64,000 nt of DNA from Comamonadaceae bacterium. GTDB lineage: Bacteria > Pseudomonadota > Gammaproteobacteria > Burkholderiales > Burkholderiaceae_C. Shown here piece by piece: positions 12,225 through 40,756 of this stretch. The stretch lies in contig CANJPU010000002.1 in assembly GCA_947476285.1 (NCBI GenBank), forward strand, positions 101,787 through 165,786, read 5' to 3'. Numbering within the stretch: the first letter of the stretch is position 1; each line of letters starts with the position of its first letter. Below the pieces are notes generated by a model. That model did not search any database. It worked only from the letters and a program-made list of their open reading frames with translations, and was not told the DNA's origin. The translations under genes were made by a program, and so were the position numbers.

Positions 12225-12695
12225 TCACGCACCCGCTGGCAATTTGAGCATGAGCCCGGTGCGCACGATGCGGCAGACCATCTCATTGCGCTGGTTGTAG
12301 CCGCGATGCTCGAACTTGACGATGCCGGTGTCCGGGCGCGACTTGGATTCGCGCTTGGAGATCACTTCTGTTTCGGACCTGAGCGTGTCGCCCAACAGCA
12401 CTGGCTTGGTGAACTCAATCGCCTCGTAGCCCAGATTGCCCATGGTGGTGCCCAGGGTCATGTCGTGCACAGCGACGCCGGTGATCAGGCCCAAGGTGAA
12501 ATTGCTGTTGACGATGCGCGTGCCGTAGATTGATTTCTTGGCGAACTCTTCGTCAAGGTGCAGAGGCTGGCAATTGTGGGTGAGCACCGAGAACATCAGA
12601 TTGTCGGTCTCGGTCACCGTGCGGGTGATGCCATGCCGATAGATTTGCCCTGGGATGAGTTCCTCAAAATACTTTCCTGCTGCGCGTTCTGTCAT
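12225..12695 (-). CDS. MaoC family dehydratase
   Basis: KYFEELIPGQIYRHGITRTVTETDNLMFSVLTHNCQPLHLDEEFAKKS; hot-dog hydratase signature. Confidence 0.88.
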   Translation of the reverse strand: MTERAAGKYFEELIPGQIYRHGITRTVTETDNLMFSVLTHNCQPLHLDEEFAKKSIYGTRIVNSNFTLGLITGVAVHDMTLGTTMGNLGYEAIEFTKPVLLGDTLRSETEVISKRESKSRPDTGIVKFEHRGYNQRNEMVCRIVRTGLMLKLPAGA

Positions 12696-12712
12696 TGCTT
12701 TCTCCGTTTCAA

Positions 12713-13594
12713 TTATTTTCGGTTCATCGCGATCATGGCTCGAGCGGTCTGTACATGCGCCAGATCGATGTGCTCGCCTTCGTACATGACAGAGGCCCGC
12801 CCTTGCGCGACACCGGCTTCGAAAGCGGTGATCATGCCCTCGAAATAGCTGATCTCTTGTGCACTGGGCGAGTAAACCTCGTTAACGATGTCGGCGTTCG
12901 ACGGATGCAGAATCATCTCACCGGTCATTCCAAGGTTGCGGTTGAAGGTGGCAAACTCGCGCAGGCCTTGCAGGTCGTGCACCGTCTGCCACAGCCCGCC
13001 CAGCGGCTGCTTGCCAGCCGCGCGGGCAGCCAGCACCACGCGCGAGCGCAAGTACAAGGTTTCCAGGCCGCCCGGTGTCAGGCGAAAGCCCACTGAGCGA
13101 GCCACATCGGCATTCTTGGCGATGGCGCCAAAGACGGCCACCACGCGTGATTCCATCGCGCATTCGTAGGCGAAGTGCAGCGAGCGGGCCGACTCCAGCG
13201 TGGGTATGAGCGATGCGGCTTGCGCGATGCCAGCGTCGCGCTCGGCCGCATCGAGCATGAGCGCCGCGCTGCGCACATCCTCAGGCCCTTCAGGCTTTGG
13301 CAGCACCAGGCCCTCCAGGCCAGGCACGGCGCAGGCGCGCACATCGTCCACGCTGTAGCCGCCCTCATCTTTGTTGATCCGCACAAACACCCGCACGCCT
13401 GCGGCTGCGAGCCCGGCAATTTTGGACCTGACCAATTGGCGCGCCATGTCCTTCATGTGCGCGGGCACGCTGTCCTCCAGGTCGATGATGACGCAGTCGC
13501 TGGTGTAGCCGGGGATTTTGTCGATCCAGCTCTCGCGGTTGCCTGGTACAAAGAGAAGTGTGCGCGCGGGTTTGAAGGAGGGCGTGGCTGTCAT
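12713..13594 (-). CDS. CoA ester lyase (HpcH/HpaI, CitE-like)
   Basis: MTATPSFKPARTLLFVPGNRESWIDKIPGYTSDCVIIDLEDSVPAHMKDMAR...; ends ILHPSNADIVNEVYSPS. Confidence 0.88.
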   Translation of the reverse strand: MTATPSFKPARTLLFVPGNRESWIDKIPGYTSDCVIIDLEDSVPAHMKDMARQLVRSKIAGLAAAGVRVFVRINKDEGGYSVDDVRACAVPGLEGLVLPKPEGPEDVRSAALMLDAAERDAGIAQAASLIPTLESARSLHFAYECAMESRVVAVFGAIAKNADVARSVGFRLTPGGLETLYLRSRVVLAARAAGKQPLGGLWQTVHDLQGLREFATFNRNLGMTGEMILHPSNADIVNEVYSPSAQEISYFEGMITAFEAGVAQGRASVMYEGEHIDLAHVQTARAMIAMNRK

Positions 13595-13638
13595 GGGGTG
13601 GGACTGGGCAGGAGAGGGCGAGGGCGAGGGCGAGAGCC

Positions 13639-16971: not shown

Positions 16972-17436
16972 TCAAGCCGGCCGCTTGGCGTTGAGTGTGG
17001 CCTTCTCGATGGCGGCCACCACTTCGCCCCTTTGATTCTTGAACGAATCGCGCCGTTTGATCACGCCGCCTCGCTCGCCTTTGTCAATCAACTCAATGAT
17101 CTCGGCTTCCATGTGGATCGCATCGCCGATGCGCACCGGCTTGGTAAAGCGCACCCTGTCCATGCCGTAGAAGGCAACCACCTTGTCCATGTTTCCGTCG
17201 AGGTCAAAAACCAGCCCGGTGCCTAGCGACAGAATCAGGCAGCCGTGGGCGATGCGTCCACCAAAGCCCAGCTTGATCGCCGCTTCTTCGCTGACATGCT
17301 GTGGTGAGTAATCGCCAGACAGTTCGCAGAAGCGCTGAATGTCTGACTCGGTGACGACATGCTCACCCGTGCGGAAAAAATCGCCGACCATCACGTCGTC
17401 GAAATAATTGTTGGCGGTTTTCAATTGGCGGGCCAT
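16972..17436 (-). CDS. MaoC family dehydratase
   Basis: NYFDDVMVGDFFRTGEHVVTESDIQRFCELSGDYSPQHVSEEAAIKLGFGGRIAHG. Confidence 0.9.
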   Translation of the reverse strand: MARQLKTANNYFDDVMVGDFFRTGEHVVTESDIQRFCELSGDYSPQHVSEEAAIKLGFGGRIAHGCLILSLGTGLVFDLDGNMDKVVAFYGMDRVRFTKPVRIGDAIHMEAEIIELIDKGERGGVIKRRDSFKNQRGEVVAAIEKATLNAKRPA

Positions 17437-17474
17437 TGCGGTCTCCAGCTTGTCGGTTAAACCCAGGTTAGATC

Positions 17475-17879
17475 TCAGATATGAAAGTTGTAGATGCGAA
17501 CCCCGTCGTCGCGGGTTTCAAAAACGACTTTCAAGGGCTCGCCGCCTTTTAATTCGCGGCCGTCCCAGTTGACGATGTTGCCAAGCAGCCTGATCTTGTC
17601 GGCAAACTCCGCCAGCGCAATCACATAAGGCACCTGGTCTTTGAGGGCAGGGTGGGTGGCATGATGGATGGTCGTCCAGCTATAGAGGCTTGCGGTGGCG
17701 GGCGCGTGTTTCCACTCGGTCTCCAATGCGTAGCAGTAGGGGCACATCGGCCCCGCAGGCCATCGCGGTTTGCTGCAGCTTGCGCAGTGCGGCAAGACCA
17801 GCCGGTCGCCAGCCAGCGCATCCCAGAAAGGCTGGGTGTCCAGATCTGCCACGGGGGCAGGCATTCCTCGCAGGGCCAT
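17475..17879 (-). CDS. Zn-ribbon / OB-fold DUF35 family protein
   Basis: HCASCSKPRWPAGPMCPYCYALETEWKHAPATASLYSWTTIHHA; two CxxC pairs then OB-fold. Confidence 0.9.
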   Translation of the reverse strand: MALRGMPAPVADLDTQPFWDALAGDRLVLPHCASCSKPRWPAGPMCPYCYALETEWKHAPATASLYSWTTIHHATHPALKDQVPYVIALAEFADKIRLLGNIVNWDGRELKGGEPLKVVFETRDDGVRIYNFHI

Positions 17880-17935
17880 GGTGGTTCCTTCGGTTTCTAT
17901 TCAGTCTGATCGGCGTGCTTGGGTTGGATGAAGCG

Positions 17936-19078
17936 TCATGCCTTGGTCAGGATCAGGGCGGCAGAGAGCTGGGCCACCGAGCTGCACGACAAGATCACCT
18001 CGGCGTTCTTCACCTGTGAGGTGGATGTGCCGCGCAATTGCCGCACCGCTTCGATCACATGGGGCATGCCATGTATGTAGGCTTCGGAGTGATTGCCGCC
18101 GTGGGTATTGACCGGCAGCGCCCCATCGAAGTGAATGCGTCCGCCCTCGACGAAACGCCCACCCTCACCGACAGGACAGAAGCCATAGGCTTCCAGCGAC
18201 ATGATGACGAAGGGCGTGAAATGGTCGTAGATCATCACCGCGTCGATGTCGCTGGGGCCCAGGCCCGCGCTGGCATAGACGTCCTTGGCGGTGTGCACGG
18301 ATTCGGGGGTGGCCAGATCGTCCCGGAAGACGATGCCTTGGGCGCGGGTGCCACTGCCCTGGGCGGCGCCGGCAATCACCGCAGGCGGGTGCCGCAGATT
18401 GCGCGCCCGGTCTCGGGTGGTGACCACCACTGCGCAGGCGCCGTCGGATTCAATGCAGCAATCGAACAGGCGCAGGGGATCGGCAATCATGCGCGAGGCC
18501 TGGTGTTGTTCCAGAGTGAGCGGGGTGCGCATCATGGCTGCGGGGTTGCGCGACGCATGGCGGCGCATGGCCACGGCCACTTCGCCAAACTGCCGGCTGG
18601 TGGTGCCGTATTCGATCATGTGGCGGCGCGCGAAGGGTGCGAACTTGTGCACTGGGGTGAGCATGCCCCAGGGCTGCTGAAAGGCCAGCACGCCGCGCGC
18701 AGTCTGTGCATCCTTGGCCTGGCCATAGCGCACGCCTGATCTTTCATTGAGCGACCGAAAGCACACCACGGTTTCGGCCAGGCCCGCGGTGATGGCGGCG
18801 GCTGCATGCACCAGCGTGGCGTTGCCGCCAGTGCCGCCATAGGCGGTCTCGCTCATCCAGCGCAGGTTGCGAAAACCAGCGTGCGATGTCAGAGCGACTT
18901 CATCGATGTTGTCCATGTCATAGCGCACCAGGCCATCGACATCGGCCGGCGTCAGCCCCGCATCATCCAGCGCGGCCCGAATGGCCTCGCAGGCCAAGCG
19001 CAGCTCGGTCTTGCCGGAATTTTTTGAATAATCGGTCTGCCCGATTCCAACGATTGCACTCTTGTTGCGAAGTGACAT
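17936..19078 (-). CDS. Thiolase-superfamily protein (lipid-transfer/Ltp2-like, lacking nucleophilic Cys)
   Basis: MSLRNKSAIVGIGQTDYSKNSGKTELRLACEAIRAALDDAGL..; WMSETAYGGTGGNATLVHAAAAI in place of the Cys motif; MIYDHFTPF; NTHGGNHSEAYIHGM. Confidence 0.85.
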   Translation of the reverse strand: MSLRNKSAIVGIGQTDYSKNSGKTELRLACEAIRAALDDAGLTPADVDGLVRYDMDNIDEVALTSHAGFRNLRWMSETAYGGTGGNATLVHAAAAITAGLAETVVCFRSLNERSGVRYGQAKDAQTARGVLAFQQPWGMLTPVHKFAPFARRHMIEYGTTSRQFGEVAVAMRRHASRNPAAMMRTPLTLEQHQASRMIADPLRLFDCCIESDGACAVVVTTRDRARNLRHPPAVIAGAAQGSGTRAQGIVFRDDLATPESVHTAKDVYASAGLGPSDIDAVMIYDHFTPFVIMSLEAYGFCPVGEGGRFVEGGRIHFDGALPVNTHGGNHSEAYIHGMPHVIEAVRQLRGTSTSQVKNAEVILSCSSVAQLSAALILTKA

Positions 19079-19104: not shown

Positions 19105-19893
19105 TCAGGAAGAATGAAGCAGGTGACGCAGTTGGCCCACGTGCGCCTGAAACTCTGCGCTTTGCTCAAGCTCGGGTTTGCGCGGGCGCGGGAACGACAC
19201 ATGGGTTGTCCGGACGATGCGCCCTGGGCGGGCGGCCAGCGAGATCACGCGGTCGGCCAGAAACACGCTCTCGGGTATCGAGTGGGTCACGAAGACCACG
19301 GTGGACTGCAGGTTCATCCAGATGCGCTGCAGCTCAAGGTTCATCGCATCACGGGTCATGGCGTCCAGCGCGCCAAAGGGCTCGTCCATCAGCAAGATTC
19401 GCGGGTTGTGCGACAAGGCGCGGGCAATCGCCGCACGCTGCGCCATGCCGCCGGACAACTCATGCGGATAGGCATTCTCAAAGCCTTTGAGGCCCACCAG
19501 TTCGGCCAACTCTTGGGCGCGCGCGGTGCGTTCGCGCTTGGCCATGCCGCGCAGCTCCAGCGGCAGTGCAATGTTACGGGCCACGGTGCGCCAGGGAAAG
19601 AGATTGGATTGCTGGAACACAAAGCCCAGCTCGCCAACGGCGGCTGAATTTTTGCTAGAGCCCTGCCACAGAGGTTGACTGCCAATCGTGATCGCGCCTG
19701 CGGTGGGGCGAATCAGCCCAGCGATCATGCGCAGCAAGGTCGTCTTGCCGCAACCCGAAGGGCCCACCACGACGACGAATTCGCCTTTGTCAATGGACAG
19801 GCTGGTGGGGGAGAGGGCGACGATCTCTCCGGTGTTGCTCGAATAGGTCTTGCTGATGTCCTGCAGCGAAATCTCGACACCGCTGATACTCAC
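19105..19893 (-). CDS. ABC transporter ATP-binding protein (nitrate/sulfonate/taurine type)
   Basis: VVGPSGCGKTTLLRMIAGL, LSGGMAQRAAIARAL, ILLMDEPFGALDAMTR. Confidence 0.93.
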   Translation of the reverse strand: MSISGVEISLQDISKTYSSNTGEIVALSPTSLSIDKGEFVVVVGPSGCGKTTLLRMIAGLIRPTAGAITIGSQPLWQGSSKNSAAVGELGFVFQQSNLFPWRTVARNIALPLELRGMAKRERTARAQELAELVGLKGFENAYPHELSGGMAQRAAIARALSHNPRILLMDEPFGALDAMTRDAMNLELQRIWMNLQSTVVFVTHSIPESVFLADRVISLAARPGRIVRTTHVSFPRPRKPELEQSAEFQAHVGQLRHLLHSS

Positions 19894-21392
19894 GTTCCAC
19901 CCTCGCCAAACATGGCAATCAATGCGCGCCGGTCGATTTTGCCGGCGCTGGTTAAAGGAAACTCCCGCATGATGCGGTAGCGCTTGGGCTGCGCATAGCG
20001 CGCAAGCCGGTCTTTGGCGAAGGCCCTGAGAGCGGCTTCGTCAAATTGATGGGTGTCCCTGGGCATCACCGCCAGCACCAGTTCATGGCCCCACTGCGCG
20101 CTGGGAAGGCCTAGCAGCGCAACCTCGGATACGCCCTCGCATTGCCGGAACTCATCTTCGACCAAAGCCGGATAGACATTGACGCCGCCGGTGATGAGCA
20201 CATCGTCCGCTCGGCCCTTGTACTGCAGATAGCCCGACGCGTCGCGCGTGAGCAAGTCGCCCGGGTTGATATCTGTGCATGCAATGACGCCCGAGCCCTC
20301 GGTCTCGATCGCCACCGCAACGCCTGGCCCGCTCACCAGAGCCTGTGATCCGGGCGCGCCCGGTGCGCCGGCTTGCGCATCAAGCAATTGAAAATGCACG
20401 CCGAATGCGGCCATGCCCACGCGGTCGCGGTCGGCTGACTCCAGCATCTCCTGCGCAGTGGCCACCGCCATTGCACCGGCCTCGACCGACCCGTAGTAAT
20501 TGAACATGCGGCCGCCCACGCGCGCAACCCAGCGCTGCGCGACACCTGGGTCGAGCTTGGCGCCGCTGATGATGATGACCAGCGAATCGTCAACGCGTTC
20601 GGTGGCCGCATCGACAATCCGCGATGCCATGGTGGGCACGACGAAAGTCGCAGTGCAGCCACGGACCTCGCGCAGCCAGGTTTGCAAATCGAAGTGCTCG
20701 CGCAGCAGCACAGTGCCACCCAGGTACAGGTGCGAGAGCGAGAACGACCGGCCCGCGCCATGAAACAAGGGCGTCGTGCACAGAAATCGCCCTCTGCGGC
20801 GCAGGCCGAATTCCGCCACCTGAGCGATGAAGCGCGAGACCGTGTTGCCGTGCGTCAGGTGCGCGAACTTGAGCTTGCCGCTGGTGCCGCCGGTGGATGC
20901 GATCACATGCAGGGCGTCCAGCCTGCCCGCAGGCAGCATCTCAAGGGCCGCTGCAGTGTGGTTGTGCGCACTGTTCGCCTCGCCGGTGCGAGACACAGCA
21001 TGCACCGGGACCTGTGTGACCGAGCGCATGCGATCTTCATCGCCGGGCGAGCAAAGCACGTAGTCAACACCGCTTGCCTGAAAGCGCCGGCCTATGTCTT
21101 GCGCGGGCCATTCTGGCGCCACCGGCACAGCCGGTATCTCAGCCGCAGCGGCGGCAATCAAGGCCACCAGATGGCCGGCCTCATTGCCTGCGGAGACGCC
21201 CAGGCGCTTGACCTTTCGCTCTTGCAGGAAGCGCGTCATGGCCAGGCTCTCGGCCAGCAGGTCGCTCCAGGTGAGGCTTCGGTATTCGTCCTCGATGGCG
21301 CAGCGCCCTGGGTGCACTTGCGCATGCTCATTGACTGCCTGCGTCAGTGTGGGCAGCAAGGTTCCGCTGTTGTCGGCGATGGATGGCAACAT
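19890..21392 (-). CDS. AMP-binding acyl-CoA synthetase/ligase
   Basis: ASTGGTSGKLKFAHLTHGN, NYYGSVEAGAMAVA, YKGRADDVLITGGVNVYPALVE, SAGKIDRRALI. Confidence 0.9.
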   Translation of the reverse strand: MLPSIADNSGTLLPTLTQAVNEHAQVHPGRCAIEDEYRSLTWSDLLAESLAMTRFLQERKVKRLGVSAGNEAGHLVALIAAAAAEIPAVPVAPEWPAQDIGRRFQASGVDYVLCSPGDEDRMRSVTQVPVHAVSRTGEANSAHNHTAAALEMLPAGRLDALHVIASTGGTSGKLKFAHLTHGNTVSRFIAQVAEFGLRRRGRFLCTTPLFHGAGRSFSLSHLYLGGTVLLREHFDLQTWLREVRGCTATFVVPTMASRIVDAATERVDDSLVIIISGAKLDPGVAQRWVARVGGRMFNYYGSVEAGAMAVATAQEMLESADRDRVGMAAFGVHFQLLDAQAGAPGAPGSQALVSGPGVAVAIETEGSGVIACTDINPGDLLTRDASGYLQYKGRADDVLITGGVNVYPALVEDEFRQCEGVSEVALLGLPSAQWGHELVLAVMPRDTHQFDEAALRAFAKDRLARYAQPKRYRIMREFPLTSAGKIDRRALIAMFGEGGT

Positions 21393-21405
21393 AGGGTGCC
21401 CCTCT

Positions 21406-22242
21406 TCACACTTGCCGAACGCGCACAGAATCGTGCCAGGGAATGGCAAAGCGTTTGATCATCACGACGATCGAGTACAGGATGAACCCAAGGGCAGTGA
21501 GCATCACGATCGCGGAGAACAGCCCTTCTATCTGAAAGGAATTCAGCCGTGAGATGGTGAGATAGCCCAAGCCGCTGTTGCCACCCAGAAATTCGCCCAC
21601 CACTGCACCGATGGTGGCGAAGACAATGCCCATCTCCATGCCTGCCAGGGTGTAGGGCAGGGCGGAGGGAAGCTCCAGCTTGATGAAGGTCTGTACCCGC
21701 GTGCCGTTGCTGGCCTCCATCACCTCACGGTAGCCCACTGCAATTGATTTCAAGCCCAGCAAGGTGTTCATGAATATCGGGAAGAAGGCCAGCACGCCGG
21801 CCACGATGACCTTGGACGTGCTGCCAAAGCCGAACCACACAACGAACAGGGGAATCAGCGCGACCTTGGGCACCACCTGCAGCGCCACGATGAAGGGATT
21901 GAGCACCTGCTCCATCACCGGAATCTTGTACAACACCAGCGCCACCATCACACCAATCACCACGGCCAGGACGAAGCCGACCATGATCTCGTGTAGCGTG
22001 GTCAAGAGATGCGCAAAGGTCACGGGGTTGGTCAGATCCTTGCCCAATGCGGCCAACACGTTCTCAGGGGCCGGCAACACAAAGGCAGATACACCCGACC
22101 AGACCACATAGGCTTTCCAGACCAGAAAGAACAGCACCAGAATGGCTGGCGTGGTGATCAGCGTCAGGCGAGATCCGAGGGCGCGGCCCTTTTTGCCAAC
22201 GGATGCCGCGGCAGGGGCGGTTTGGGCGTCGTCTGTTTTCAT
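21406..22242 (-). CDS. ABC transporter permease (NitT/TauT type)
   Basis: MKTDDAQ...; multi-TM; VPKVALIPLFVVWFGFGSTSKVIVAGVLAFFPIFMNTLLGL. Confidence 0.92.
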   Translation of the reverse strand: MKTDDAQTAPAAASVGKKGRALGSRLTLITTPAILVLFFLVWKAYVVWSGVSAFVLPAPENVLAALGKDLTNPVTFAHLLTTLHEIMVGFVLAVVIGVMVALVLYKIPVMEQVLNPFIVALQVVPKVALIPLFVVWFGFGSTSKVIVAGVLAFFPIFMNTLLGLKSIAVGYREVMEASNGTRVQTFIKLELPSALPYTLAGMEMGIVFATIGAVVGEFLGGNSGLGYLTISRLNSFQIEGLFSAIVMLTALGFILYSIVVMIKRFAIPWHDSVRVRQV

Positions 22243-22871
22243 GGCTTGGAGATGTGTGTGACGCTGGCGGCCTGGGCCGCGCGGGTGAATTGCGCCAGAT
22301 CGGTCATGTGTGCAAACCCGAAGGCCATGGCGTCCAGCGAAGGCTGATGGCGCTCTTGCGCCCAGTCGGCGCAGGCGTCGGTGACCACATAGGTTCGGTA
22401 GTCGCGCTGCGAGGCATCGCGCACGCTCGTCTCCACACACATGGAGGTGGTGACGCCGCCGATGAACAAGGTGGTGATGCCCTCGCCACGCAGCACTGCC
22501 TCTAGCGGCGTGGCATAAAAGCTCGACATACGCGGCTTGTCGATCACGATGTCAGTGGCGGCCACAGTCAGCTCGCCCCACAGTTCGCTGTCGGCCTTGT
22601 CCGAGCGCAGCGAATCATTGGCTTTGATGTTGGGCCGAAGCTCGCGTGTGTACCAGCCCCCGTCGCGGTAGTCGGGCCGCAGGCAATAACGCGTCCAGAT
22701 GACGGTGATGCCAGCACTGCGCGCGGCGGCAGCCATCTGGTCGCATGCCCGCGCAGCGAGTTCGGACGAAGCAATATTTCTGCCTTGGCGGGCCATGCTG
22801 CCATCGGGTGAACAAAATGCCTCCTGAAGATCAATCAGGAGCACCGCCGTGCTCGCGGGCTCTATTTTCAT
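22239..22871 (-). CDS. Isochorismatase family cysteine hydrolase
   Basis: AVLLIDLQEAFCSPDGS, VIDKPRMSSFYATPLEAVLRGEGITTLFIGGVTTSMCVETSVRDA. Confidence 0.92.
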   Translation of the reverse strand: MKIEPASTAVLLIDLQEAFCSPDGSMARQGRNIASSELAARACDQMAAAARSAGITVIWTRYCLRPDYRDGGWYTRELRPNIKANDSLRSDKADSELWGELTVAATDIVIDKPRMSSFYATPLEAVLRGEGITTLFIGGVTTSMCVETSVRDASQRDYRTYVVTDACADWAQERHQPSLDAMAFGFAHMTDLAQFTRAAQAASVTHISKP

Positions 22872-23953
22872 TTACCGAACGCTTTGTCCCAGATCTCATT
22901 GGTGTAGAAGCGTGTAGGCACCGCCGGCTTGATCACGCTCGCATCGATGGCGAGCTTGGTGGCTGATGTCCAGGCGGCCGGATTGTTGCGCAGCAGATTG
23001 GCCGCGCCTTGCTCCACCCAAGATTGGCTCTCGATGCGCAGGCCACCCAGCGCGGCAGTGGGGTTGGCGGCCTCGGGCACGTTGTACTTTTGCACGGCCG
23101 CGAGCAGCTTGGAGATGTCGTTCCTGCCGATCTGGGCCAGAGCGTCCTCAAACGCGCCGCGCGCGCCGCGCAGGAAGCGGATCAGTTCTTCAGGCCTCTT
23201 AGTTACATTTTCCACTGTGGTGATGTAGACCTGACCGGGCACTGGCACCAGGTCATGGGTGGCCACAGTGGTGAAGGGCACGCCGCGCGATCTGAGCTCG
23301 ACCACGGCCGCGTTGGTTCCGACGAAGGCGTCGATCTTTTTCTCTTGTATCAGGCCGAAAGAGCCGGCGCTGGGGCCTACCACCTGGCGCCTGACGGTCT
23401 TGGTATCCACATTGGCGCTGGCCAGGATCAAATCGAGCGTCTGCGAGGTGGCGCCGCCCACAGACACTATGCCGATGGTCTTGCCCACCATATCCGCGCC
23501 CTTGCGGATTGGGTTGTCTGCCGAGCTGATGATCTGCAGCGGCGCAATGTGGGCAATGGTGCCGATCGCGATGACCGGAACCCCGCTGTTGGCCACCGCA
23601 TTCATCACGTCGATGCCGGCGCCACGTGTGACCAACGCCTGCCCGGTGAGCAACTGCTGTATGGCTTGCGAAGAGCCTTGGGCGGCCTGTACCGTCAGGT
23701 CAAGCCCCGCGTTCTTCATGAAGCCACCCGCCTCGCCATACAGCAAGCCAGTGTAGGCCAGAAGGTAACCCGCAGGCGTGATGCCTGTGGCCTTGAGCAT
23801 TTGCTGGGGCGGTGCGGCGCTGGGCCGGGCGCCTGGCGTGCTGGCCTGGGCGATCAGTATGGCGCCATCGCCGGCGGCCATGGCCCCCCAGCTCGCCGCC
23901 AGGAGCACAAATGATCCGATCGATCTGGGAATGAAACCTTTGAAAAGCAGCAT
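22868..23953 (-). CDS. ABC transporter substrate-binding protein (NitT/TauT-like)
   Basis: LLAYTGLLYGEAGGFMKNAGLDLTVQAAQGSSQAIQQLLTGQALVTRGAGIDVM. Confidence 0.85.
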   Translation of the reverse strand: MLLFKGFIPRSIGSFVLLAASWGAMAAGDGAILIAQASTPGARPSAAPPQQMLKATGITPAGYLLAYTGLLYGEAGGFMKNAGLDLTVQAAQGSSQAIQQLLTGQALVTRGAGIDVMNAVANSGVPVIAIGTIAHIAPLQIISSADNPIRKGADMVGKTIGIVSVGGATSQTLDLILASANVDTKTVRRQVVGPSAGSFGLIQEKKIDAFVGTNAAVVELRSRGVPFTTVATHDLVPVPGQVYITTVENVTKRPEELIRFLRGARGAFEDALAQIGRNDISKLLAAVQKYNVPEAANPTAALGGLRIESQSWVEQGAANLLRNNPAAWTSATKLAIDASVIKPAVPTRFYTNEIWDKAFGK

Positions 23954-25059: not shown

Positions 25060-27309
25060 TTACCGGTACTTGGCCTCAATGCCTTGCGTTGTGCTCTTGC
25101 GGTACTTGCCTTCGCCCACATAGACAAGCCAAGTGTCCAGCAGTTTCGGCTGAACGATGCCGGGGCGCGTGTAGTCGCAGACGCCGCTTGCGAAGATCTT
25201 GCGCAGTCTATCCATCTCTTGCGCGCTGAAGCTCACCGAGTAATCGCGCGCATCGACCTTGCGGCGAGTGCATTGGACGACATCGTGCGCGAGCGGTGAA
25301 CCGGCCACGAAGCGCGGGAAGGTCCAGCTAGGGTACAAGGTGTTGCACGGGGAAGAGCCGGGGCCACCCTGCACCTGTGGCTCAGCAGTGAAAGCGCCGC
25401 CATTCCAGCAACCGTCTTGCAGCGTGGCGGGTTTGTTGCTCACAACTTTCTTCGCAAGCGGTGCGGATGAAGTGTCCGCCACCAGCCTGGTCAACCAATC
25501 ATCCATTTGCAGCAGGGCCGCAGTCCATGTGGGCGGCGTGATGGCGCCGCTCCAGATCACCATGTTGTCCACTTGGCCTTGCGCCTTTTGCATTCGATCG
25601 CGGGTGGCGAAGTGCTGGAACTTCAGGTGCGGGTCGCCGGTGAGGGTCTTGTCACGGTAGATGAAGTCGATGTCCAGAATGGCCACAGATCCCAAGCCCC
25701 GGCCGCCCGCATTGAAAAATCCAGATTCGTAGGCGGCCTTGATGCCCTTGGAGTCTGCCACCGTTCTTCGCGCGATGAAATTACCATCGTGGTCAATGCC
25801 ACCGACCTTCTCGTTCAGGTCGAGAAACTGCTCTTTGGTGATTTGGCCTTCATTGAGCGCCTTCAGCCCGTATTGAATGCCGACATTGTCCAGCGCGGTT
25901 CGGCCAAAGCCCTTTTCGTCGCGTCCGAAGATGTTGGCCATGGAATCCCACAGCGTGGCGCGCACGCCGCGCGGATTGGAAACCGGGTCGTATCGCACCT
26001 GCATCGGCACGTTGGGTGTGTACACGCCTGAGCTTTCGGCGGGAAAGCCCGGGCGCGTCGTCAGCGGGTCGTAGCGTGAGGCGCGCCCCACGCCATGGTC
26101 CTTCAAGTGCGCGAAATTGTGAAACCCGGACACCTTCACGACTTCGTCCTCGGTCCAGGGAACTTTGGCACCGCCGTTCAGGTAGTAGTTGTACAGCAAC
26201 CGCGAGTCCAGTCCGTGGATGTTGGTGATGTCGGCAAAGCTGCATTGGGGAACAATGCCGTCGAGCAGCCCGGGATAGGCATCGGCGATCATGTTCTGCA
26301 GGATGGAGCCGCCCGAGCAGCCCCAGCCCATGGTGTAGAGCGGCACGCCAAAGGTCTCGATGAAGCGTTCCTTCACCATCATCATGGTTTCGGCGGCCAG
26401 CACGAAATTGCAGTTGTTGCCCAACACGGTGAAGGCTGCCGAGGTGACTGCGAAGCCCTTGGAGAGGAAGAGATCCGGATTGCCCGCGCCCGGCACATTG
26501 AACAGCGAGTTGGCGCCTTGCACATACCAGCCTGGCTGGCAGCCGCCACCGAAGCTGTGCACAAGTCGGCCGTTCCAGCCTGGATCGGCACGCGTCTTGA
26601 GGTCGGGTCCGGCCACGCGCGGATCGTCCAGCACCGCGGTCTGGTAGACCGATCGATTGAGGGTGCCGGTTTCCAGCCGCACGATGTAGGGCACGGTGGC
26701 GCCAGTTGTCGTCGTGGTGTTCTGGATGTCAGCGGGCAGCGGACCGGCAGGATTGAGGGGCGCGAAAGCACCTGCGGCCGTGCGGTACAGATAGTCGATG
26801 CGGGTGGGCACCTCACAAGGCGGCTCGATCTGGGTGGTGGTCAGGAACGGGCCGCCTGGGTAGACGCGAAACTCATGCGTCTGGCAATAGAAGGGCTTTT
26901 GTTGCGGCCCCGAAAATATAGGCCCGGTGACGCTGTGGTTGACCAGGGACAGCCTGGCAGCAGCGGCGCGACCCGCAGTCGCACGCAATTCATTGCGGCC
27001 GATCTTCATGCCCTGGACCAGCCCGACCAGCTTATGCCCATCGCCCTGTGGTGCGAAGGAGGCGGTGACGTCCGCTCCGTTGAGCGTCACCTTCACGTCA
27101 CCCAAGCTTGAAGCCTGCGCAACTGTGATCGACACCAGCACATCGCCGCCGCTGAGTTTGTCCGGTCGATTCGACAAGGCCGAGATCTGAAGTCGCTCGA
27201 CTTGGCCTGCTGCGCCGGCTGCTGTGGTCAGCAGGGCTGACAGCACAGCCAGCACGGTCACGATGAGCCGGCTCCCTATCGCCTTGTATGTGTGAGTGTT
27301 GGATTGCAT
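25060..27309 (-). CDS. DUF6351 family secreted protein (putative alpha/beta-hydrolase fold)
   Basis: Signal peptide ..LLTTAAGAAGQ; LVHSFGGGCQPGWYVQG; MGWGCSGGSILQNMIADAYPGLLDGIVPQCSFADI. Confidence 0.75.
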   Translation of the reverse strand: MQSNTHTYKAIGSRLIVTVLAVLSALLTTAAGAAGQVERLQISALSNRPDKLSGGDVLVSITVAQASSLGDVKVTLNGADVTASFAPQGDGHKLVGLVQGMKIGRNELRATAGRAAAARLSLVNHSVTGPIFSGPQQKPFYCQTHEFRVYPGGPFLTTTQIEPPCEVPTRIDYLYRTAAGAFAPLNPAGPLPADIQNTTTTTGATVPYIVRLETGTLNRSVYQTAVLDDPRVAGPDLKTRADPGWNGRLVHSFGGGCQPGWYVQGANSLFNVPGAGNPDLFLSKGFAVTSAAFTVLGNNCNFVLAAETMMMVKERFIETFGVPLYTMGWGCSGGSILQNMIADAYPGLLDGIVPQCSFADITNIHGLDSRLLYNYYLNGGAKVPWTEDEVVKVSGFHNFAHLKDHGVGRASRYDPLTTRPGFPAESSGVYTPNVPMQVRYDPVSNPRGVRATLWDSMANIFGRDEKGFGRTALDNVGIQYGLKALNEGQITKEQFLDLNEKVGGIDHDGNFIARRTVADSKGIKAAYESGFFNAGGRGLGSVAILDIDFIYRDKTLTGDPHLKFQHFATRDRMQKAQGQVDNMVIWSGAITPPTWTAALLQMDDWLTRLVADTSSAPLAKKVVSNKPATLQDGCWNGGAFTAEPQVQGGPGSSPCNTLYPSWTFPRFVAGSPLAHDVVQCTRRKVDARDYSVSFSAQEMDRLRKIFASGVCDYTRPGIVQPKLLDTWLVYVGEGKYRKSTTQGIEAKYR

Positions 27310-27352
27310 CTGGTCGTCTTCTCTGAATTTCATCTGTGCCCGATGCGAAAGC

Positions 27353-29074
27353 TCAGGGCTTGCAAGTGAAGCTGCTCGCCACGTTGATGTCGCCCGAGCC
27401 GTTGTAGTGCGCCCAGGTCGGGTAGGCGCACAGCGGGCGGGTTCTGCTGGTGACGCCAAAGTAACCAGGGTTTGTGGCCGATGCGGGCACGCTGTCAGGC
27501 GCAATGCCGCGCTCGACCCAGTTTTCAAGTGCTGCGAGCATGTCGAAGCGGTCGGTGGCTGGCCCGCCGCTGCCGTGGTTCATGCCAGGCACAAGGAACA
27601 GCCTGGCGAATGAAGCCGCTTTGCCACCTTGCTCGGCATTTAGCTTCTTCCACCAGTTGATGGTTTCGTTGGGAGAGACGGCTGCGTCGGCCTGTCCTGT
27701 GTACTGGATCAGCTTGCCGCCGTTCTTCTTGAAGCGGTTCAGATCGGTGGATGTGGCCAGACCGTTCTGGATGGAAGAGGTGGTGTAGTAGTCGGTGGTG
27801 CGCGATGCATAGGTCATCAGCTCATCGCGTTTGAAGGCCAGCTCCCAGGCGAAATTCTGTTCCACAGTCAGGGGCACTGGCGGTGTCGTGTGCACCATGG
27901 CGTGCAGCGGTGCGCTGGTGGTCACCTTGATCGCGTTGTTCGCCGCAGATTCGTAGGAGCCCAGCCACCACGCCCTGAAGCCTTGATTGAGCTTGCCGGC
28001 ATTCATGCCGCCGATGCCGGGTTCCCAGGGGTTGCCGGCGTAGATCTGCACACCTGCCGATGTCTTGGGCCCGGCCATGGCGGTGCGCCATGCGTTGATC
28101 TGGGCTGCGCTCAGGCAATCGGCCGTCTTGTCGGCGCTGCAGGTGAGGGCGGTGAGTTTGGGCACGACCACCTCATCGGTGCAGGCTGCAAGATTGTTCA
28201 CCATGCCATCGACCAGGCCGTCTTGCGCGTCGCAGGCCTGCAGCACTGCATTGGCGATCAACTGGATGTCCGCGTCGGTGTAGGCCTTGACGATCAGCGG
28301 GTTGCCGTAGGAGTCTGTTTGCCCCGGCGGCACCAGTGTGGCGAATGTCTGCGCCAGCAGCGAAGCGTAGGCCTGATGAATGGGCGTGCTCATCGCAGGG
28401 CAGCCAGCAACCACGCCGCTAAAGTGAGTGGGGAAGCGGTTGGTCATCATCATGGCTTCACGCCCGCCCTCCGAGCAGCCGACAAAGTAGGACTGCCGCG
28501 GCTTCTTGCCGTAATGCGCCGCAGTGATCGACTTTCCCAGGCGGGCGACGATGTCATAGGAGCGGTGACCGAAATCAACACGCGCCTGTTGGTCGATGCC
28601 GAACGATGCCGCACCACCCCGGGCCGGGTCACCCAGTGCGACGTCATGTCCAGAGTTGTGCACGATCACAGCGTAGCCGCGGCCCAGTGCGTTGACATAG
28701 CTGCCCACGATGGTGCCTGGCGGGTTGCCAGTGGCGTCGGCCAGGATGCCGTTGGCGCCGCCGCCGCCGGGCATGTAGAACTTCTCGTTCCAGGCATCGG
28801 GCAGGCGCATGCGGAATTTGATGGCGTAGGCCTTGCCGTCCTTCGGACCAATGCGTTCGTCCATTGCGCCTTCGATCAGGCAGTGAGATGCCATGTTCTG
28901 ATCCGCTGGCTGGGCAATGGCGGTGGTGATGCGCAGCTTGGTCCCCGCGACAGGATGGGCCGCGACGTAGGCGCCCGTGGCTGCGCATTGACGCGGCGCG
29001 GCAAGGGCTGCTTGGCTATGGCCAATGGCGATCAGGCCAAGAGCGGCGATGAGTGGCAGGTGAGTGGGTTTCAT
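27353..29074 (-). CDS. Tannase/feruloyl esterase family alpha/beta hydrolase
   Basis: FYMPGGGGANG, SYFVGCSEGGREAMMMTNRFPTHFSGVVAGCPA, LIQYTGQADAAVSPNETINWWKKLN, LVPGMNHGSGG. Confidence 0.9.
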   Translation of the reverse strand: MKPTHLPLIAALGLIAIGHSQAALAAPRQCAATGAYVAAHPVAGTKLRITTAIAQPADQNMASHCLIEGAMDERIGPKDGKAYAIKFRMRLPDAWNEKFYMPGGGGANGILADATGNPPGTIVGSYVNALGRGYAVIVHNSGHDVALGDPARGGAASFGIDQQARVDFGHRSYDIVARLGKSITAAHYGKKPRQSYFVGCSEGGREAMMMTNRFPTHFSGVVAGCPAMSTPIHQAYASLLAQTFATLVPPGQTDSYGNPLIVKAYTDADIQLIANAVLQACDAQDGLVDGMVNNLAACTDEVVVPKLTALTCSADKTADCLSAAQINAWRTAMAGPKTSAGVQIYAGNPWEPGIGGMNAGKLNQGFRAWWLGSYESAANNAIKVTTSAPLHAMVHTTPPVPLTVEQNFAWELAFKRDELMTYASRTTDYYTTSSIQNGLATSTDLNRFKKNGGKLIQYTGQADAAVSPNETINWWKKLNAEQGGKAASFARLFLVPGMNHGSGGPATDRFDMLAALENWVERGIAPDSVPASATNPGYFGVTSRTRPLCAYPTWAHYNGSGDINVASSFTCKP

Positions 29075-29100
29075 ATCAAGGTGTACTCCAGTTGTTGATG

Positions 29101-30078
29101 TCAAAGTCGCCGTTTCGCCCAGACGGTCGGGTTCAGAAAAAACTCCGGCGCAGTGCCGGCAAGCGTCGCAATCACCGCCTGCGCTGAACGCATGGCCATC
29201 AGGCGGCGTGTGGATTCGGTGGCACCGCCCACATGCGGCATCAGCACAACATTGGGCAATGCGAACAAGGGGTTGTCGGGGGAGGGCGGTTCGGTCTCGA
29301 ACACATCCAGGCCGGCCGCATAGAGCTGATTGCTCGCCAGAGCCTGGGCCAGCGCTGCTTCGTCCACCACGCCGCCGCGCGAGGTATTGACCAGCACAGC
29401 CGTCTTCTTCATGCGCGCAAGCTCTTGCCCGCCGATGAGGCAACGGGAGTCCTCGGCCAGGCTGGCGTGAATGGAGACGATGTCGGCTTCCTGCAGAAGC
29501 TGCTCCAGCGTATCGACCTTGCGGGCACCTGCGGCTTCGATTTGCCGTGCCGTGAGGAAGGGGTCGTAGGCCAGTACCTGCATGTCAAAGCCCGCCGCGC
29601 ACATCCTGGCCACACGTCGGCCGATGTTGCCAAATCCGATGATGCCCAAGGTCTTGCCGCCGGCGCCTTCGAGCATGATCTTCCAGCGGTCGGCATAGTG
29701 GCCCGTGGTGACCACCTGGTGCATTTGCGGAATGCGCCGCAGCGCGGACAGCATCAGCGTGACGCTGGCCTCGGCCACCGATTGCGCATTGGCATCGCCC
29801 GAGTTGGCTACCACGATGCCCAGGCGAGTTGCTGCGGGAATGTCGATGTTGTCCACGCCAGCGCCGTGCTTGACCACGGCCTTCAGGCGCGGCGAGCGCT
29901 CCAGCAGTGCAGTGCGGATCTCGAAGGTTCTCACCACGACCGCATCGGCTTGGGCGATCGCGTCCATGCAGGCCTCGCGCTGTCCGGGCTGAAAGCTCGA
30001 CACCTTGTGATGCTCGCTCAGCGCCTGGATGCCGGCTTCATGCATCGGGTCGGCAACGACCACGTTCAAGGTTTGCAT
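29101..30078 (-). CDS. D-2-hydroxyacid dehydrogenase (phosphoglycerate dehydrogenase-like)
   Basis: TLGIIGFGNIGRRVARMCAAGFDMQVLAYDP, AVLVNTSRGGVVDEAAL, GLDVFETEPP, MPHVGGATEST. Confidence 0.93.
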   Translation of the reverse strand: MQTLNVVVADPMHEAGIQALSEHHKVSSFQPGQREACMDAIAQADAVVVRTFEIRTALLERSPRLKAVVKHGAGVDNIDIPAATRLGIVVANSGDANAQSVAEASVTLMLSALRRIPQMHQVVTTGHYADRWKIMLEGAGGKTLGIIGFGNIGRRVARMCAAGFDMQVLAYDPFLTARQIEAAGARKVDTLEQLLQEADIVSIHASLAEDSRCLIGGQELARMKKTAVLVNTSRGGVVDEAALAQALASNQLYAAGLDVFETEPPSPDNPLFALPNVVLMPHVGGATESTRRLMAMRSAQAVIATLAGTAPEFFLNPTVWAKRRL

Positions 30079-38415: not shown

Positions 38416-39593
38416 TTCCACGCACACTCTTCTCATCTGAACACGAGGTTTTTCGCGATACAGTGCGCCGTTTTATCGCCACCGAGATCACGCCTTACCA
38501 CGCAGACTGGGAGAAGGTGGGCGAGACACCGCGTGAGATGTGGATCAAGGCCGGGCAGGCTGGCATTCTGTGCTGCAACATCCCAGAGCGGTACGGCGGC
38601 ATGGGCGGCGACTTTCTGCACAGTGCCATCGTTCTGGAAGAAGTCGGGCGTGCCGGCGCCTCGGGGGCCATGTTCTCATTGCAATCGGATGTGGTGGCGC
38701 CGTACCTGGCTGACTTCGGCACCGAGGAGCAGAAGATGCGCTGGCTGCCAAAGATCGCCAGCGGCGAAGTGCGCGTGGCAGTGGGCATGACCGAGCCCGA
38801 TTTCGGAAGCGACCTGGCGGGCATGCGTACCCACGCGGTGCGCGACGGCGACGACTATGTCATCAATGGCCAGAAGGTGTTCATCACCCACGGCCATACG
38901 GCCGACTTGCTGGTGCTGGCGTGCAAGACCCATCCCGCCGCAGGCGCCAAAGGTGTCAGCCTGATTCTGGTGGAGACAGACCGCCCCGGGTTCCGGCGCG
39001 GCCGTCGGCTGGAGAAAATGGGTTGCAAGGCGCAGGACACGGCGGAGTTGTTCTTCTCCAATCTGCGGGTGCCGGTGTCCAACCTGCTGGGCGCGGAAGG
39101 CGCGGGCTTTGCCCAGCTCATGACGCAATTGCCCCAGGAGCGCTTGATCATGGCGATCCGGGCTGTGGCGGCATCGGAGGTGGCGCTGGAGAACACCATC
39201 GAGTACGTGAGCCAGCGCAAGATGTTCGGTCAGACGCTCGGCGACTTTCAGAACACCCGATTCAAGCTGGCCGAACTGCATGCCGAAGTGATGGCGCAGC
39301 GGGTGTTCATCGACCGCTGCCTGGAACTGCACCTGCACAAGAAGCTCGATCCGATTGACGCGGCCGCCGCCAAGCTGATCACCACCGAAACCCAGGGCAA
39401 GGTGGCTGACCAGTGCCTGCAACTCTTCGGGGGCTGGGGCTATATGTGGGACTACCCCATCGCCCGGGCCTTTGTCGATGCGCGCATGACACGCATCGGC
39501 GGTGGCGCCTCTGAAGTCATGAAGCAAATCATTGGCCGCAGCCTTCTACCAAATCGGCCCCGGCGTGCGCCGCCAGCTTCTTCCACGGATTGA
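38412..39593 (+). CDS. Acyl-CoA dehydrogenase family protein
   Basis: AVGMTEPDFGSDLAGMRTHAV, GLFGGWGYMWDYPIARAFVDARMTRIGGGASEVMKQIIGR. Confidence 0.95.
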   Translation: MIPRTLFSSEHEVFRDTVRRFIATEITPYHADWEKVGETPREMWIKAGQAGILCCNIPERYGGMGGDFLHSAIVLEEVGRAGASGAMFSLQSDVVAPYLADFGTEEQKMRWLPKIASGEVRVAVGMTEPDFGSDLAGMRTHAVRDGDDYVINGQKVFITHGHTADLLVLACKTHPAAGAKGVSLILVETDRPGFRRGRRLEKMGCKAQDTAELFFSNLRVPVSNLLGAEGAGFAQLMTQLPQERLIMAIRAVAASEVALENTIEYVSQRKMFGQTLGDFQNTRFKLAELHAEVMAQRVFIDRCLELHLHKKLDPIDAAAAKLITTETQGKVADQCLQLFGGWGYMWDYPIARAFVDARMTRIGGGASEVMKQIIGRSLLPNRPRRAPPASSTD

Positions 39594-39595
39594 AC

Positions 39596-40756
39596 ATGAG
39601 CGGATTTCCCAGAGGCAAGGCAGCGGTGGTGGGCACCGCCACCTTCGGCATTGGCGAGGCCAAAGGCTTCAGCTCGCTGGACATCGCCGTGCATGCGAGC
39701 CTGAAGGCGCTGGCCCAGGCCGGGCTCACTCCAGCGGACGTGGACAGTGTGTCCGTCGCGCTGCCCGATGACTTCTTCTCGGGCATGTCCATCACGGAAT
39801 ACATGGGGTTGCGCCCCAAGCTGTCCAACAACAACCGCACCGGCGGCTCGTCATTCATGACCCACATGATGAGCGCGGCCCTGGCACTGGACGCCGGCCT
39901 GTGCGAAGTGGCCTTGATCGCCTACGGCAGCAACCAGCGCACCAACCCAAACAAGCCAATGGTCGTGCCCTCGCGCCCTTCGATCTACGAGGCGCCCTAC
40001 AAGATGCGAGAGCCGGTCTCGTCCTACGCGTTGGCGGCCTCACGGCACATGCATCTGTATGGCACCACGCGTGAGCAACTCGGTGCCGTTGCGCTGGCCT
40101 CGCGCCTATGGGCCCAATTGAACCCCGAGGCGTTCCTGCGCGAGCCCTTGAGCATGGACGACTATCTGAAAGCACGCCTGGTATCTGACCCGCTCACGGC
40201 GCGCGACTGCTGCGTGTCAACCGATGGCGGGGCTGCCTTGGTGATGGTGCGTGCCGATAGGGCGCCAGACCATTTGGCTAAGCCGGCCTATGTTCTAGGC
40301 TGCGCCGAAGCCTGCTACAACCGCGAAATCTCCAGCATGCCCGACGTCACCGAGACATCGGCCAAGGAGGCCGCTGCACGCGCCTTTGGGCAAGCGGGCG
40401 TTAGCCGCTCGGAGATCGACGTGGTGCAGGTCTACGACGCCTTTACCATCAATCCCATCCTGTTTCTGGAAGACCTTGGGTTTTGCCCCAAGGGCGAGGG
40501 CGGTCGTTTCGTGCAGGGCGGGCGCATCGCGCCGGGGGGCGCATTGCCCACCAACACCAATGGTGGCAGCCTGTCCTGCGTGCACCCCGGCATGTACGGG
40601 ATCTTCTCGCTGGTGGAAGCGGCGCAACAACTCAGTGGACTGGCCGGGCAGCGCCAGGTGCCAGGTGTCAATCTCTCCCTGGCGCAGGCCACCGGCGGCT
40701 CGCTCTCCCATCAGGCCGTCGCCATCCTGGGCAGCGTCGATACTTTACGGGCTTGA
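39596..40756 (+). CDS. Thiolase-superfamily protein (non-canonical, lacking N-terminal Cys nucleophile motif)
   Basis: KAAVVGTATFGIGEAKGFSSLDIAVHASLKALAQAGLTPADVDSVSVA; NNNRTGGSSFMTHMMSA; NTNGGSLSCVHPGM. Confidence 0.85.
   Translation: MSGFPRGKAAVVGTATFGIGEAKGFSSLDIAVHASLKALAQAGLTPADVDSVSVALPDDFFSGMSITEYMGLRPKLSNNNRTGGSSFMTHMMSAALALDAGLCEVALIAYGSNQRTNPNKPMVVPSRPSIYEAPYKMREPVSSYALAASRHMHLYGTTREQLGAVALASRLWAQLNPEAFLREPLSMDDYLKARLVSDPLTARDCCVSTDGGAALVMVRADRAPDHLAKPAYVLGCAEACYNREISSMPDVTETSAKEAAARAFGQAGVSRSEIDVVQVYDAFTINPILFLEDLGFCPKGEGGRFVQGGRIAPGGALPTNTNGGSLSCVHPGMYGIFSLVEAAQQLSGLAGQRQVPGVNLSLAQATGGSLSHQAVAILGSVDTLRA

Follow-up and report, generated by a model that had tools for sequence, protein, structure and literature searches.

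A conserved Comamonadaceae operon encoding a MaoC protein, a DUF35 protein and an Ltp2-type thiolase-fold protein with predicted hydratase and retro-aldolase functions

Gene content of the operon

The window analysed here is a 64,000 nucleotide stretch from a Comamonadaceae bacterium (GenBank assembly GCA_947476285.1, contig CANJPU010000002.1, positions 101,787 to 165,786). It includes three adjacent, intact open reading frames on the minus strand that predict a thiolase-like protein, a DUF35 protein and a MaoC protein, and the matches of this triad to Pfam Thiolase_C_1, zf-ChsH2 with OB_ChsH2_C, and MaoC_dehydratas all exceed the curated cut-offs. A preliminary description of the sequence had interpreted the three genes as a putative retro-aldolase complex. 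It placed them correctly, and the unit is kept in Microvirga and in an actinobacterial metagenome-assembled genome (MAG).

The triad forms the end of an eight-gene operon (Table 1), in which consecutive genes overlap or are separated by no more than 56 bp, with 38-56 bp between the triad genes. The upstream genes predict the substrate-binding protein, permease and ATPase of an ATP-binding cassette (ABC) transporter, an amidohydrolase and a coenzyme A (CoA) ligase. The PDB matches of the amidohydrolase are cysteine, biuret and ureidoacrylate hydrolases, and its scores fall under the family cut-offs for both BiuH (102.7 bits, cut-off 370) and RutB (101.5 bits, cut-off 378). No steroid genes were found in the operon by Pfam annotation, and neither the operon nor its Microvirga counterpart contains an acyl-CoA dehydrogenase. 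The lack of the latter points to an acid that is already unsaturated or 3-hydroxylated on entry, or whose oxidation takes place elsewhere.

Table 1. Genes of the operon in order of transcription, with predicted products and supporting matches
Predicted product	Coordinates	Strand	Evidence
NMT1/THI5-like ABC transporter substrate-binding protein (gene 1)	22868..23953	-	Pfam NMT1 E 4.3e-28; 70% identical to the Microvirga L061 orthologue, same place
Isochorismatase-family cysteine amidohydrolase, biuret/ureidoacrylate hydrolase-like	22239..22871	-	Pfam Isochorismatase E 2.8e-40; L061 orthologue 67%
SsuC/TauC-like ABC transporter permease	21406..22251	-	Pfam BPD_transp_1; L061 orthologue 72%
AMP-forming acyl-CoA ligase	19890..21449	-	Pfam AMP-binding E 2.4e-45 and AMP-binding_C; L061 orthologue 52%
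ABC transporter ATPase	19105..19893	-	Pfam ABC_tran; L061 orthologue 72%
Ltp2-type thiolase-fold protein without nucleophilic Cys, predicted retro-aldolase	17936..19078	-	6ok1_A, PRK07855, residue mapping, tree
Stand-alone DUF35 protein (134 aa), predicted obligate Ltp2 partner	17475..17879	-	Pfam zf-ChsH2 and OB_ChsH2_C; 6ok1_B E 5.4e-18
Stand-alone MaoC hydratase (154 aa), PaaZ / R-hydratase type, Asp42/His47	16972..17436	-	Pfam MaoC_dehydratas E 1.9e-24

Relationship of the thiolase-like protein to Ltp2

The closest solved relative of the 17936-19078 protein is TcLtp2 from the Ltp2-ChsH2(DUF35) complex (PDB 6ok1_A), with 48% identity over the full length (E 5.7e-107), and the protein scores 483.9 bits against NCBIfam PRK07855 "lipid-transfer protein" (cut-off 469). 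In TcLtp2, Tyr294 (in YDHF) acts as the base, His296 lies in the oxyanion hole and Tyr344 is the acid (PMC12329534), and the 6ok1 sequence carries these tyrosines at exactly 294 and 344. Tyr284 and His286 (YDHF) and Tyr334 (EAYIHG) of the window protein share alignment columns with this set, which bears out the proposal that its tyrosines resemble those of Ltp2. The motifs first quoted for the protein are also present, and Gly occupies the thiolase nucleophile position, which is Cys in BbsB. The term "Cys-less" is correct for the N-terminal nucleophile position but not for the protein as a whole, which has seven Cys residues elsewhere (30, 106, 207, 208, 215, 301 and 365).

A maximum-likelihood tree of 32 sequences grouped the window protein with those of Microvirga and two MAGs in one clade (support 100/100), sister (96/95) to the clade of igr-type Ltp2s (100/100). 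The latter includes TcLtp2, proteins from igr-like operons of Vibrio and Novosphingobium, and two proteins from contigs C15 and C81 of the same Comamonadaceae genome. Identities between the two clades are 46-51%. The likeness to Ltp2 far exceeds what chance would give, but the window protein does not fall among the steroid Ltp2s and belongs to the clade that is their sister. By the features tested it is an Ltp2-type protein, and it is placed outside the igr steroid system because the operon lacks a ChsH2 fusion and acyl-CoA dehydrogenases and the protein falls outside the igr clade.

Cys365 (LSCSSVAQ), which is kept in all four members of the window clade and is Thr (LVTAGTG) in the igr-type Ltp2s, could point to other chemistry carried out by this fold, for example thiolysis, a condensation or acylation that forms a C-C bond (as in the PhlABC acyltransferase), or decarboxylation. 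However, the N-terminal nucleophile is Gly, the Tyr/His/Tyr set is that of the aldolases, and having a hydratase and a ligase as partners fits a catabolic role, making such a reaction unlikely.

The DUF35 and MaoC partners

The closest solved relative of the DUF35 protein is the partner chain in the same crystal (6ok1_B, ChsH2 DUF35). Its zinc finger, C32-x2-C35-x10-C46-x2-C49, has all four Cys residues invariant in the alignment and is of the C4 type as in TcChsH2, not the C3H1 type of Shy.

The Asp42/His47 hydratase dyad of the MaoC protein is invariant in the window, Microvirga (L061) and actinobacterial (L062) proteins. Alignment with PDB 1q6w, 4ffu and PaaZ 6jql revealed no large gaps, with a gap of just two residues against the MaoC domain of PaaZ. 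The steroid hydratases ShyMaoC and ChsH2 have a nine-residue central helix followed by an auxiliary domain, whereas in PhaJ and PaaZ the helix is longer and the tunnel closed (PMC11321319). At the level of sequence, the small gap against PaaZ argues against a steroid-type hydratase and for a substrate of less than steroid size. AlphaFold2 models of the MaoC protein (three-sequence alignment; predicted local distance difference test, pLDDT, 43) and the Ltp2-type protein (five-sequence alignment; mean pLDDT 57), both from shallow alignments, were poor and were discarded.

Conservation in other genomes

All eight genes recur in Microvirga antarctica in unchanged order, with identities of 70, 67, 72, 52, 72, 82, 60 and 64% from the binding protein to MaoC, and the Ltp2-type protein is the most conserved member. 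In actinobacterial MAG L062, the Ltp2, DUF35 and MaoC genes are kept (74%, 48% and 50% identity) with unrelated genes around them, and a second actinobacterial MAG, L063, retains Ltp2 and DUF35 in the part of the contig examined. As the triad is kept with two independent flanks, gene order shows it to be a real unit. These orthologues of the Ltp2-type protein were found by a scan requiring exact short peptides, which does not prove rarity, and a search of 368 other genomes of the class gave no further orthologue at E <= 1e-130.

The genome of the window is crowded with such genes, with 24 DUF35 and 25 MaoC places, and the three could be chance neighbours without a joint function. This is very improbable given that the triad order is the same in Microvirga at 60-82% identity, that the triad recurs in the actinobacterial MAG with different flanks and that its genes are closely spaced. 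For the operon, chance is refuted by the synteny between genera.

Downstream of the Microvirga operon are genes for two PuuE-like proteins and a second isochorismatase. The counterparts of these three genes in the Comamonadaceae genome (40-57% identical) sit together on contig C58 (L086:6736-12276), where the two PuuE-like deacetylases and the isochorismatase are found with MmgE/PrpD-like, AtuA-like and PrpF-like genes. Together with the hydrolase of the operon, the PuuE-like genes and the C58 group hint weakly at an amide, a lactam or a ureide as the substrate. A ureide is kept only at that level because one actinobacterial MAG has the triad without the hydrolase and PuuE-like genes.

Related genes elsewhere in the genome

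In the Comamonadaceae genome, 28 places resemble the 17936-19078 protein, and a DUF35 gene lies within 1.5 kb in 22 of them. About 25 Ltp2/SCP2-thiolase-like proteins, the highest count among the sampled relatives, are predicted and nearly all are Cys-less, with the nucleophile Cys present in only 2 of 26 aligned. Their active sites vary (YDHF with Tyr, YDCF with Tyr, YDCF with His, and YDAF with His). In the 398 other genomes sampled from the order, DUF35 genes number at most 12, and roughly three quarters of these genomes lack them; the scoring in this comparison took in no more than 15 candidates from each genome, so that the Comamonadaceae genome was itself capped at 15. Thiolase_C_1 places number 31, and the next highest among 60 relatives is 14.

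Tandem pairs of thiolase-like genes followed by DUF35, in which YAPF or YDPY replaces YDHF, were seen on contigs C33 (L023/L028) and C2 (C2:27416-30078; L025/L027). These are possibly two-subunit thiolase-like enzymes.

Although the operon itself has no steroid genes, in line with the first description, such genes are not entirely lacking from the genome. Contig C15 (L031:6706-11802) carries a complete igr-like operon composed of a MaoC-like/DUF35 (ChsH2-type) fusion, an acyl-CoA dehydrogenase, MaoC, Ltp2 and a further acyl-CoA dehydrogenase. A second igr-type pair is found on C81 (L029:13970-15433), where a 487-aa protein combines a MaoC-like domain, DUF35 and a second MaoC domain in the manner of a single-chain ChsH2-ChsH1; its gene immediately precedes that of an Ltp2 with 67% identity to TcLtp2. 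On C24 (L037:9334-15248), a gene for a KstD-like flavoprotein, with 3-oxosteroid 1-dehydrogenase 7p18 as its best solved relative, adjoins genes for a YDCF Ltp2-like protein, DUF35 and a MaoC domain.

These three loci, and catalytic residues identical to those of TcLtp2, would be compatible with an aldolase for the C3 side chain of steroids or bile acids that no longer has its igr neighbours and uses intermediates supplied by genes elsewhere in the genome. However, this is improbable. The window clade is separate from the igr Ltp2s, the triad is conserved alongside genes for ABC import, amide hydrolysis and CoA ligation, and the PaaZ-type MaoC would leave little room for the auxiliary domain of the steroid hydratases. 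Furthermore, no HsaC/BphC-like extradiol dioxygenase was detected in the genome, and the KstD-like match is far under its cut-off (366 bits against 793).

Predicted function

The triad probably comprises a hydratase and a DUF35-dependent, Ltp2-type retro-aldolase acting on a non-steroid CoA thioester, and the retro-aldolase complex first proposed is supported by the sequence comparisons. The comparisons establish the gene order, the conserved operon, the catalytic residues, the zinc ligands, the hydratase dyad and the sister-clade placement, while the activity, complex formation and order of steps are inferred. In the proposed route, uptake of an acid or amide through the ABC transporter would be followed by formation of the thioester by the CoA ligase, perhaps after the isochorismatase-family hydrolase has split off an amide or ureide group. 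MaoC would then hydrate the 2-enoyl-CoA to a 3-hydroxyacyl-CoA, which the Ltp2-DUF35 complex would cleave to a ketone or aldehyde and acetyl- or propionyl-CoA. Tyr284 would be expected to take the proton of the 3-hydroxyl, with His286 in the oxyanion hole and Tyr334 protonating the enolate.

Several observations weigh against this route. Cys365 is a clade-specific change in a loop close to where thiolases have their second catalytic Cys. The L062 triad is found without a ligase, transporter or hydrolase, and L063 shows Ltp2-DUF35 alone in the contig part examined, so that the operon neighbours beyond the triad may stand outside the reaction.

A broader and more tentative possibility is that a non-steroid hydratase and Ltp2-type retro-aldolase route replaces the thiolysis of beta-oxidation when the cell imports an acid bearing an amide or ureide group, and that the genome encoding it has seen DUF35-partnered Cys-less thiolase-fold enzymes multiply to more than 20. 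If so, these would represent a large unexplored family of carbon-carbon lyases acting on CoA thioesters.

The Ltp2 and Sal aldolases, which are sought as biocatalysts, are described in the cited literature only for the degradation of steroid side chains, and their known chemistry would become broader if a conserved operon unrelated to steroids used the same catalytic residues. With a hydratase partner of the predicted small-substrate type, the reaction could be tested with simple branched or aryl 2-enoyl-CoAs. The approximately 25 natural active-site variants in this genome are material for studying what makes an enzyme of the thiolase fold change from thiolysis to aldol cleavage or back, and database names such as "lipid-transfer protein" or "acetyl-CoA acetyltransferase" hide the aldolase kinship of such proteins.

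Other genes in the window

A second Ltp2-superfamily protein (39590-40756, plus strand) has YDAF and no nucleophile Cys, and there is no DUF35 gene within 20 kb. Its gene has as neighbours an acyl-CoA dehydrogenase-like gene and a gene resembling ADP-forming acyl-CoA synthetases. At 12225-13618 (minus strand), 3.4 kb from the Ltp2 operon, a MaoC gene (weakly RipB/mesaconyl-CoA-hydratase-like) beside one for a CitE/HpcH-type lyase is another hydratase and carbon-carbon lyase pair. Two consecutive tannase-family genes, DUF6351 (761 bits) and tannase/feruloyl esterase, are found at 25060-29443 (minus strand). The ferulate-type substrate that they brought to mind was not adopted, as they are outside the operon and have no match in L061-L064, loci with which they were not compared in detail.

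Comparison with known systems

The window system shares with Ltp2/ChsH2(DUF35) (6ok1; the igr operon; Comamonas ORF43/ORF40) a thiolase fold without the nucleophile Cys, the YDHF Tyr base, the His and the second Tyr, as well as a DUF35 partner with a C4 zinc finger and a MaoC-family hydratase partner. It differs in that MaoC and DUF35, fused in ChsH2, are encoded by separate genes, and in that an ABC importer, amidohydrolase and ligase are present instead of the acyl-CoA dehydrogenases ChsE1E2. The loop that includes Cys365 differs as described above.

Sal and Shy, the aldolase and hydratase for the C5 side chain of bile acids, likewise combine a thiolase fold and Tyr base with a DUF35 partner and a MaoC hydratase. 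However, Sal has YDCY with a Cys acid, and its counterpart of the second Tyr is Gln, where the window protein has YDHF and Tyr, and Shy is a DUF35-MaoC fusion with a C3H1 zinc finger rather than separate proteins with a C4 finger. Benzoylsuccinyl-CoA thiolase BbsAB and the archaeal acetoacetyl-CoA thiolase with DUF35 also pair a thiolase-like subunit with a Zn-OB partner, but BbsB has Cys in the nucleophile column and HDAF, in place of Gly and YDHF.

The ring dioxygenase IpfAB belongs to the ibuprofen route, and unlike that route the window operon has no ring dioxygenase. IpfD/IpfE can be likened to the window system by description only, as part of a non-steroid CoA route; in ibuprofen degradation, the thiolase encoded by ipfDE releases propionyl-CoA (PMC9195938). 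The window MaoC aligns without large gaps with the MaoC domain of PaaZ and the R-specific hydratases, but is a stand-alone protein paired with Ltp2-DUF35.
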